DNA of 64,000 bases from positions 526,501 to 590,500 of the forward strand of contig JAQGDQ010000040.1 in assembly GCA_030141605.1 (NCBI GenBank). Reading direction: 5' to 3'. Position 1 is the first letter of the stretch, and every line of letters starts with the position of its first letter. The notes below the pieces were generated by a model. That model ran no database searches. It worked only from the letters and a program-made list of their open reading frames with translations, and had not been told where the DNA came from. Positions 26,470-35,400 of this stretch are shown here, one piece after another. The translations under genes were made by a program, and so were the position numbers. The stretch is from Tubiluchus corallicola. Lineage: Eukaryota > Priapulida > Priapulimorpha > Priapulimorphida > Tubiluchidae.

Positions 26470-29400
26470 TTAAATAAAACTGTTTGGCATCTGCTTGTGA
26501 ATAAACTTTATCATTGCATCCCGTGACAGTTTAGACTCATCGTGTGGCTGATCGTCTAACAACTTCACTCCATTTTCCCACTGCCAATGCAATTGCTCTT
26601 CTAAACAATCTCTGCATATTAATAAACAAATTGTAACATTAGATCGAGTGAGTTCGTGTTCGGAAGAATTTATGTTTCACTCTTCATTTCACCCATGATA
26701 ATTATGCATGTAATGTTCTAATTTATTAGTTATCTGTAACTGTAACAGAACGTTATAAGTCACTACAATACACTAAGCAGACAGTAGGCTTGTTGCTCAA
26801 CTTGGCAAATATGATAGATAACGAAAATATTATTAAAATGTGTATTATTTTGTACTTTAGTAACAATCAACCCTAATTACTTTTTTAAATTATTTTTAAG
26901 TTATTTTTTAAATGCTGTACCTGAAAGGAAAAACACTGGCATTTAATTTTGCAAAAGAAAATTATAAAAACATGGCAAAGAAATATTTAATTGCATTTTA
27001 TAGATTTTGTATCAGTACAGAAAGTTGATTGTTATCAGTCCAACAACAAAAATAGTGAACAAGATCAAATGATCACCAACACTTTAGAACAGCACATTTC
27101 ATATCAAGCAAAAACTTATTTTTACTGCATGTGAACTGAGATATGCCTGGAGATTTTGATATTACTCTTGTAAAATATGAATTACTGAACTACGCTGAAT
27201 ATTTTTCCATAAGATTCACACAAAAATAAGTTCTTATCAGAACTTTTATTGATTTTTTTGTCTAGAAAAACCAGGCAGATAATTTATTAATTGTATGGAA
27301 AAATATTCTTTACTAGAGTATAATTCTAAAATAACAAAAGTTTTTGTTATTGTAATGGGACTAAGCTTCTAGAATGGAATTCTAGGGGGAATGCTTCTAG
27401 AGACTTTAGCAAATGTCTAAAAACGAAATCTTACACCATATCTAAATGATATATCAAAAATTAGAAATTGTGGGAAATAATTACTTGAAACTGCAAAATG
27501 ACTCTTTCGGGAAATCAAATTGCGATTCTCTTGTTTTCTTATTAAACACATATTTTCTTCTTGCACCTTTGCTCCAATGAATAGACCAAGGACCTGAATA
27601 TTTAAAAAACAAATCAATATTATAACAAGATCAAATATAAAACTATTATTCTGGCAAAACAAGTTACTCTGACTTTATTTATGCTTATTAACAAATAGTT
27701 GAAGCAAGTAAATGAATTAGCTATCGATTTTTTTTCATCTAGAGTTGATGGATATAAAAAACCTATAGAGCACCATACTTCTCCTATTGAGAAATACCTC
27801 AAAGTCAATTATTGTTATGTCAGCAATTTAATAGTATACAATGGGGAATTGCATAAGTACACTAAAGTGGTAGAAACTATTGGACATGTTACGACTCAAA
27901 ACAAAAGTATGAAAGCAGTACCTTTAACAATTTTAATGAAAGTAACACCAGTTGGATTAAAGTACCAATCCTCTTCTGTCTGATAGCATAGTCTTGGCCT
28001 GCCACCTGAACCTTTCATTGTTCTCATACTTAACCTTTTAAATGATAAATAAAAAACAGATAAAAGGGGAAAGTACTGATTTTTCAAATGCTGAACATCT
28101 ATTATGGTGACCAGTAAAATGGTAATAAGATGCATTGAAAGCTTAGATTCTCCAGAAATTTTCTAAAACAATGAGAATGTCGTTAAGATCTTTGGTAAAA
28201 CAATGCACTAATATCAAGACAAGATCTTTAAGAACCATGAATAAGAAAAACTCTAAGACTACTTCTCTCTGCTTACAAATAGCAAGTGCAAGCCATTATT
28301 TTGAAATGGGAGTTTTAGTGTTGCAGTAGCTTAATGTCGCTGTACTGCTGCTTTCAGTCATTAAAATGCATCACCACATCTTATACTGCTTTGAAGTTAA
28401 CCTCAAATGATCATATTTGACCGCATGCAAAAATCTGACATATGTATAATACAATGACTCACAGTTCAAAATAGAGCTAACATTACATGTGCATAGTTGT
28501 TTGGCTCCAATAAATCACCCCAACTTTAGAACTCTAGTTATTTTTACTTATTTTTGTAAAGAAAGGCCTAATCATGCCTATGAGATGTAAAAGAAAAACT
28601 TCCAGGATGTTTGTGTCTTTGTGAAGCACAAATTTGTTTTACACTTTGACAGTTTTTTGCTTCATAATAACGATATGCAAAGGAAGAAAAATTTACTGAT
28701 TTATAGAATACACCTGGCCACAGTCAAAACCTATAGTGACTGAGATGAGAATTTAATAGTCATCTCTGAGCTATATGTCGTAATTTTTTCTAAACTTACA
28801 AGAAGCGTCAGTACTTAAAGGGAAACTGCTTTGGCCATATCAGATAACAAATGTGTTAATAGCAGATGGTAAATACACGCAACTAACAGCTTTGAAATCT
28901 CTGAAGCTTTGAATCTAAAAGTCTCAGACACTCAATAAAGCAAAAACAAATATTACAACTAAAGGGACTTTAAAATAATTTGTTAAGGCTTTCTGCTCCC
29001 ACAAATTTCTTCTTGCCTTCTTAGTATTTGCAAATTCCGACATTCAAGTGTACATTTTGCATCATGCACAAGTGTACAGCTTGCATTTTACTACTCCTGT
29101 GTAATCAAAATCAAACAAGTACTAGAGTACTAGACGTCCCATTCTGAGATGAAAAAATTAAAAACAGCAATAACTCGTTAATAATACTGAAAATTTATTA
29201 ATGTTTCATATTACTGTAATTCACATTAGTGCAATTTAACTTCAGCAATTGAATCATGTTTAACAATTCGGGTGAAGGCAATTTAGAATTTTACACAGCA
29301 GGAAAACACGTCAACAGAATCAATGTTAGCATTAAAGACATCATAATTTTGCATTGACATGAATTGCAATCATTGGATCCTCAAAGTCTGTGTTGACAAT

Positions 29401-32400: not shown

Positions 32401-35400
32401 GTTGCCACTCGAAGTGAAACACGTATCTGGGCCATTGAAATCCCAATAGCTGTACATCTGAAATTGCTTAGTTGCAGCATTGTAGTAACTGCCACATATA
32501 CCAGTACCTTCTCCAGCATCGACGCCAACCATATGGTTGATAACAGCATCCACATAAACTCTACCAACATAAACATGGGCAAATTAAGCAGGTGTACTGC
32601 GTAACAATTCAGTAAGTGTCACTAACAGAACTTTACATTTTGAAATATTATCTAAATTATGACTTGTTTTTCTTACAAGAAAACTTATAAAACAGCCACG
32701 TATTTGTACATTATATATATTATAATTATATGTAGGTTTACGAGTGCCAAGGCTACAAAAAATTTATCTGTAAATATTTTTTTCATTCATTTAATTTCTG
32801 CTCCTTTGCAAGCAAGCAAGCCAGCATGTAGAATGGTTACTCCCTTAATGCAATGAATCCAATTGCATTCCTTGCGCATACAGTACTTGAAGGCTAAGCT
32901 AAGCAATATTTAATGGTATTTAATTATTAATAGCAAGAAATTGATTTCCATACAGATTAACTCACAGTCATTAGCACTGCAGATCGCATAACAGTAACAG
33001 TATGTAAAATCAATAAACAAATAAAACACAAACCTAACACCAACATCATTGCACGTCTGTACCATCTGCTGAAAAGCTTTGTCATCGCCAGATCTTCCAC
33101 ACACCGTATAGCTTGCCGGCTGATAACGCTCCCACCAAGGTCGTCGAATCTTAGGGTCCCAATATGGCTCATAAACAACACGATGTTCATTGGGAGGTGA
33201 TACCTAAGTAATTGCAAAATCATCTGCAGTTCAACATCAACAATGCTGTACAAAGTCGACTTATCAATGACTACAATACTGCTTGCCATACAGTTCTACG
33301 TAAATTGAATGAACTGAATTTTCATATTAATATGAATGCTGTACTGCAAATAAAAGTATGCTTCACTATGTAATGTAAATGTAGAACGAATCGTACCTGA
33401 ACTCCTGCGTAACCCCTTGGACCCAAAAAACGCTCGCACTCTTGGGCTATATCTTCCCATTTCCATTCAAATAGATGAACGATAGTTGTGCGATCGGGAT
33501 AAACATGCGGATTGTACTGAGCAAGTGCAGCACAACTCAAGAGCAGCGCGGCAAAAATGCGCATCATGACGGACTGCTCAGCCATTCAAACGGAACAAAC
33601 TTACCAAAGAATGCGACAAAATTTATATATCACAGGAAAATTAAACAGCTGTGGTAAGTCACACAGAGTTATCTGTAATAACAGACAGTTGCTGTCACAG
33701 TAAATACAGCAACAGAACAGCTGTCATACCAGCCATGAAGATATATTGCACTTTGTACCTTTTGCTAATTTTTGTATTTAGTTTTAAGCATTTCTTATTT
33801 TCACTAGTGTTTTACCACCCTTGTACATTTTATAAATTATGTGAAAATAATAATATTTCACTGGATACTGATTTAAACAAATACCCGGGCGTTTGTTGTT
33901 TATTTATATAAAAACACTACATAAATTTATTCCTCACCACCACTTTTGTCTCCTTTCACATGAATGCCAACAACAGTACATACATTAGTTGTTTGGTTAA
34001 ATAAATGTTAAAGATTTTTTAATACACTTTTGTCTACAGTTGTGTAAACATACAAAACTCAGATGTAGAATCAAATCAAAAAATGATAAAGCCATGCAAA
34101 AACAAGCTGCACTTACTTATCAAATATCATCTGTAATTTTTCCATGCCATACAGCTGCTTGACTTTTAGTGTAATGAGTTCTGTACAAGTCGACTTTTGT
34201 AAGGCTTTTGTGAATTTTCGACACAAATCTAACCTAAATGATCAAAAGAGTAATTTTAGAAAAACAAAGGAAAGAAAAATGAAAAAGAACAAGAACACTC
34301 AGTGATATTTCAATTTATACAAAGCCAAAAATTATTGCAAATCATAAAGCCATATTTAGCTGCTATCAACTAATGATGGTTTTTGTATGCATTAAGTTCC
34401 TTTGAAAGAATGTTTGTGTAAAACTGTCATGCCATTTGTATGAAATTGTACCAACCTTTCAGGGTATGGCTTGTCACGTATGTCATTTCCAGCCAATACC
34501 ATTGCATCACGAATGTGTATAGCTGTGACCTTCCTCTGACCTTTGCTCTGAAACCATTACTCATAACTGATTTTTAAAACATCACAGCCATGGTGACTAA
34601 ACACAAGTGCCTTAAGAGCCACAACAGATCATTAGGTTCTACAGACTCTTATTAAGGTCTATAAAAATCCGTGATTTAAGGTCTATAAAAATTCGTGATT
34701 TGTGTAATCACTGTTAAGGGCAAGGATTTATTCACAGAACTAAGTTTTTTCTGTCTATGTACACTTTGGTTCTCTGCAAGCCACAATTCGGCACTCAGGG
34801 GCTGACGAAAAGACCTTTTGAAGTAAAATTTTCACCCATCAAAATTGGCACTGGAGGTCACATCACTAAATTAAATGAAACAAAATTAAAACAGATTCAT
34901 TAACTTACAGCTCACCATGTAGAAATCTAAAGTTTAAAGATTTTAAATGTAAATCAGGCCAGCTTGCCATTTTTTCTTCTTTTGCAATATTTAAGTCAAA
35001 ATCTGAACCGCTCTGGACACAACACATTTCTTAAAGGTTTAGATCTAGCCCTGCACACTACGGTTCTTACTTTCTTTCCATGCTTTTGCTACAAAATTTT
35101 AACCATTATATCGCATTTTACTGTATGATGATGGTTGTGTAGTATATTATCAGCAATTTGTTTAAGTTTTTTTTATATAGTATATATGAGTTGCAGAGGA
35201 TTTGATGTTCACTGTCCTGTAGTAAATGTAATTCTTTTAGTTTGTTAATAATAGAGGTGACATTAAACAAGCAGACAAAGTGGTAACCCATCTATCTATT
35301 GGCCGGACTCACCACTGCTTAGCCATCGCACACATAATACTCAGTACTATCCTTCTTGCAAAAATAAAATATTTATGCATATTTTTAAACAACTATCGCT

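Follow-up and report, generated by a model that had tools for sequence, protein, structure and literature searches.

The genome of the priapulid Tubiluchus corallicola contains a complete α-amylase gene lying within a single intron of the gene for the capping enzyme CMTR1. The stretch that we analysed, referred to below as the window, comprises 64,000 nucleotides of contig JAQGDQ010000040.1 (assembly GCA_030141605.1, positions 526,501 to 590,500 of the forward strand), and coordinates given without a further label are positions in it. The amylase (33585-29341) falls wholly inside CMTR1 intron 18 (34116-28035), and both genes occupy the minus strand. From the sequence analysis we consider it highly probable that this is a true same-strand nest, in which an old, independently transcribed animal α-amylase (the guest) resides in intron 18 of CMTR1 (the host). 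Such an arrangement had been proposed in an earlier reading of the window (the original prediction), and the gene models that we rebuilt agree with its structural claims: the coordinates it gave for CMTR1 exons 18 (34233-34117) and 19 (28034-27922) are exact in a 21-exon model, the two exons join in phase and align with human CMTR1 across the junction, and a full eight-exon amylase lies between them in the same orientation.

The host gene spans 26470-50047 of the minus strand. Its 21 coding exons (50047-49430, 47296-47093, 47006-46914, 46772-46701, 46119-46025, 45110-45038, 44754-44562, 44186-44068, 43616-43520, 42026-41894, 41609-41427, 39316-39260, 39123-39066, 38009-37941, 37733-37602, 35832-35713, 34547-34456, 34233-34117, 28034-27922, 27593-27485 and 26611-26470) form a model of 963 codons including the stop, which is open throughout and aligns over its full length with human CMTR1. 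Pfam identifies, over its cut-off, a G-patch domain (PF01585) and an FtsJ-type methyltransferase domain (PF01728). Intron 18 is 6,082 bp long and is the longest in the gene, the runner-up measuring 2,133 bp. It is a phase 2 intron: exon 18 ends at the donor ATAA/gtaagt and exon 19 begins at the acceptor tttaaaag/GTT (the slash marks the splice site), and the joined codons GAT AA/G TTA AGT give ...MIFDK/LSMRT..., which aligns with ...KIFVRLEMKL... of the human protein. Exons 19 and 20 together encode a C-terminal stretch that aligns with the human WW domain; because Pfam reports no WW domain at E 0.001, this comparison rests on the alignment. In human CMTR1 the WW domain is required to bind the phosphorylated C-terminal domain (CTD) of RNA polymerase II (Pol II) (PMC11290353).

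Two further details of the host model were observed. CMTR1 intron 5 is of the GC-AG type (ACAG/gcaagt at 46024, after exon 5), the remaining CMTR1 introns beginning with GT. In addition, the ATG (50047) lies 2 nt downstream of an acceptor-like tttttgtag, and a noncoding first exon is therefore likely upstream.

The guest has eight coding exons (33585-33397, 33203-33034, 32560-32374, 32171-31925, 31193-30950, 30624-30421, 30144-29978 and 29504-29341), which join into a 523-residue frame without an internal stop; all seven of its introns (193-731 bp) are GT-AG. This frame is complete and specifies a product of its own, unrelated to the CMTR1 protein. Its best relatives in the PDB are animal amylases, the best match being 3vm5 (E 2e-210, residues 23-523), and both the catalytic domain (PF00128) and the C-terminal all-beta domain (PF02806) are found by Pfam over the cut-off. 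The catalytic residues D223, E259 and D326 are kept in conserved motifs, and alignment with human amylase shows the chloride-site residues R221, N324 and R363 to be present. Judged by its sequence, the nested amylase is probably a complete and working gene.

The original prediction had also credited the amylase with a TATA box and a poly(A) signal of its own. Both motifs are present, namely a TATA-like TATATAAA at 33622-33629 (minus strand), 44 nt 5' of the ATG, and an AATAAA at 29194-29199 (minus strand), 142 nt 3' of the stop codon, which is a candidate poly(A) signal for the amylase. By chance, however, TATAWA would turn up in such a 35-nt zone about 5% of the time and AATAAA in a 160-nt stretch about 20% of the time, which makes each motif weak evidence when taken alone. 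The case for the TATA-like box as an amylase element is strengthened by one of two amylase paralogues in the assembly, C166 (C166:279487-282173), which has the identical octamer TATATAAA at -40; the other, C4 (C4:511312-515268), has TATATATT at -45. Like the nested copy, both paralogues carry a TATA-like element 38-45 nt 5' of the ATG.

The nested amylase is about 60% identical to the two paralogues, which are 83% identical to each other, and 57.9% identical to human amylase. Between the nested copy and C166, differences affect 35% of first, 26% of second and 60% of third codon positions and 69% of fourfold sites, the last figure being near saturation. Given that the proteins remain about 60% identical despite this, long-term purifying selection is indicated; it has acted on the nested/C166 pair and is not assignable to one branch. 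Nested introns 1-3 stand at positions identical to those of introns in C166 and C4. Introns 1 and 3 also fall exactly where human amylase has introns, and intron 2 is offset by 5 bp from one of the human introns. Intron positions 1, 11 and 5 (vertebrate 4) are widely shared among animal amylases (PMC3096672), and by our own matching to that numbering nested introns 1-3 would agree with positions 1, 11 and 5/4. As intron positions are shared with both the paralogues and human, we assign the nested amylase to an old lineage. In our reading the gene is old and constrained, its age being that of the amylase lineage and not that of the nesting.

Compared with animal α-amylases of GH13_15/24 (pig, human, medaka; PMC3096672, PMC7003070), the nested copy has the same sequence type, catalytic and chloride residues, C domain and intron positions, but differs in having four further introns in its 3' half and in sitting inside CMTR1. 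C166 and C4 have no counterparts of these last four introns, their catalytic and C domains being free of introns beyond the shared three; the four would have been either gained by the nested copy or lost by the paralogues. The paralogues differ from the nested copy in two other respects. Their exons continue downstream into an extra C-terminal extension that the nested copy lacks, and a Lys replaces the third chloride-site Arg (YGFPKVMSSY), which the nested copy retains; this substitution may change chloride dependence. Taken by themselves, the extension and the intron positions would suit a bilaterian, perhaps a lophotrochozoan. Duplication and later insertion into an intron is a frequent origin of internal genes (PMC8467205), and by analogy the amylase most likely reached CMTR1 as a duplicated gene.

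Downstream of the C166 amylase, about 5 kb of sequence (about C166:285000-290000) consist of N. The assembly gave no match to COX1, and none to GH6 in a search whose controls were likewise silent and which therefore carries no weight. Another GH13 gene (C20:46500-48700, intron-free, 548 aa) was set aside as bacterial, because the only relatives found for it were proteobacterial (about 50-58% identity); the assembly thus seems to hold bacterial contigs, perhaps from a symbiont.

Searching the assembly (343.5 Mb, in which the locus is on contig C1820), we found a single full CMTR1, a single full-length match to the nested amylase and a single match for each flank of intron 18, all on C1820. With full matches to host and guest confined to this locus, nothing in the assembly points to a second exon 19 or to a copy of intron 18 that lacks the amylase, a result limited by missing haplotypes and by stretches of sequence that the search did not cover. 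That the amylase segment was wrongly joined into CMTR1 during assembly is scarcely credible, given that host, guest and both intron flanks match in full at one locus only, that the locus is without repeats of at least 25 bp, and that the inserted segment keeps within an intron whose splice sites and phase are in order. The same lack of repeats at the locus leaves nothing to show the route by which the amylase arrived.

A guest on the host strand raises two concerns voiced in the original prediction, namely that the host transcript must pass the guest poly(A) signal and that host and guest splice sites must not be paired with each other. The first is generic: the other CMTR1 introns contain 22 AATAAA motifs (1.5 per kb), so disregard of intronic AATAAA is routine. 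Protection of intronic poly(A) sites by the U1 small nuclear ribonucleoprotein (telescripting) is established in human, mouse and fly (PMC5499120). In the same-strand nest that we favour, the amylase would be transcribed from its own TATA promoter and end at its own AATAAA, and CMTR1 transcription would read through the guest, whose poly(A) signal would be suppressed, as is usual for intronic signals, by U1 telescripting.

The second concern has substance. Scored with a matrix built from 32 introns of the same genome, the donor and acceptor of host intron 18 reach 5.1 and 5.2 bits (medians 7.2 and 7.5), and five of the seven guest acceptors match or outscore that of the host. The guest donors (11.5, 4.7, 8.2, 10.2, 5.4, 8.6 and 11.4 bits), however, are nearer and mostly stronger, six of the seven lying above the host donor. 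As almost all guest acceptors have a guest donor that is closer and stronger than the donor of exon 18, the guest introns would probably be removed first from the host pre-mRNA. The joined guest would have neither a 5' acceptor nor a 3' donor and would therefore leave an ordinary intron, such that exon 18 could pair with exon 19, and the amylase would then leave in the lariat of intron 18. Some leakage would be expected, either as chimeras or as CMTR1 transcripts that end in intron 18. Several observations weigh against the nest as we describe it: the splice matrix is small and its scores are rough, the guest acceptors of exons 3 and 6 are weak, and in the AT-rich DNA of this region neither TATA nor AATAAA motifs are rare. 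We also considered whether weak splice sites are peculiar to intron 18 and rejected the idea, its donor being the fifth weakest and its acceptor the fourth weakest of the 19 CMTR1 introns scored, which is not exceptional.

The chimeras that could arise are readily specified. Exon 18 joined to amylase exon 3, 6 or 7 would be in frame, and no other guest exon would be; the chimera into amylase exon 2 put forward in the original prediction would be out of frame and would add 131 residues. The in-frame joins, and the guest acceptors that equal or exceed the host acceptor, are what would be expected if the amylase exons served mainly as alternative exons of CMTR1 that make fusion proteins. We nevertheless hold this to be most improbable, as the amylase has its own start, a signal-like N-terminus and a TATA motif, the nearest acceptor (exon 2) is the one that gives the out-of-frame join, and it is hard to see a use for a nuclear protein fused to part of a secreted enzyme.

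Left unspliced, exon 18 runs straight into a stop codon after ...MIFDK, giving a CMTR1 of 842 aa that keeps the G-patch and methyltransferase domains and is without the stretch aligned to the human WW domain. The position of the guest within CMTR1 is suggestive in this respect, in that a stop in intron 18 would remove the WW-aligned region. Amylase transcription or 3'-end formation could then yield a functional short CMTR1 and alter cap methylation in amylase-expressing cells, a coupling to which the intact domains and the human role of the WW domain lend some plausibility. We regard it as improbable, given that an early in-frame intronic stop is common by chance and that we see no sign of selection for the site. 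Less probable still is that the amylase acts as a switch, its transcription ending CMTR1 in intron 18 to produce the 842-aa form without the Pol II-binding C-terminus; were this true, it would tie gene expression in digestive cells to cap-1 methylation. Under the independent nest that we prefer, the location of intron 18 directly before the region aligned with the human Pol II-binding WW domain has the merit that leakage would be easy to recognise.

Internal genes of nests are typically intronless, and the eight coding exons of the guest are the less usual feature of the CMTR1/amylase nest. A many-exon guest on the host strand is a demanding form of nesting, in which the splice sites of two genes are interleaved on a single RNA, and the locus suits a clean test of guest-first intron removal and of how guest poly(A) sites are bypassed. 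Same-strand nesting of one spliced gene in another was called unusual in the original prediction, which overstates the matter: human nested pairs comprise 75 parallel and 152 antiparallel cases (PMC2330155), and 25.7% of simple human nests are same-strand (PMC8467205). Same-strand nests are thus a disfavoured but regular minority, making up between a quarter and a third of the nests in human, and not an anomaly. Between 4.3 and 8.7% of vertebrate genes are in nests, the usual pattern being a broadly expressed host with a tissue-specific guest (PMC8467205), which would, by analogy, fit CMTR1 as a housekeeping host and the amylase as a digestive guest.

Parallel nests known in animals include KTI12 in TXNDC12 and CHML in OPN3 (PMC3192792). 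The CMTR1/amylase nest resembles these in that a complete guest occupies a single intron of a host with several exons, in the same orientation and with an expected risk of interference; it differs in the eight coding exons of its guest, and transcriptional interference, which has been shown for those pairs, is here predicted. Our literature searches turned up no case of an amylase inside CMTR1, though such a negative argues only weakly that none has been described. Same-strand nesting is well documented in animals, and we regard the CMTR1/amylase nest as real but not as a new kind.

Elsewhere in the window we observed three open reading frames. Two are on the minus strand, one encoding a rhodopsin-type seven-transmembrane receptor (9253-10275; PF00001, E 2e-28) and the other an RRM protein (4531-5742; PF00076, E 2e-10). 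The third, on the plus strand (55771-56115), encodes CCCH zinc fingers and lies upstream of CMTR1 on the opposite strand.
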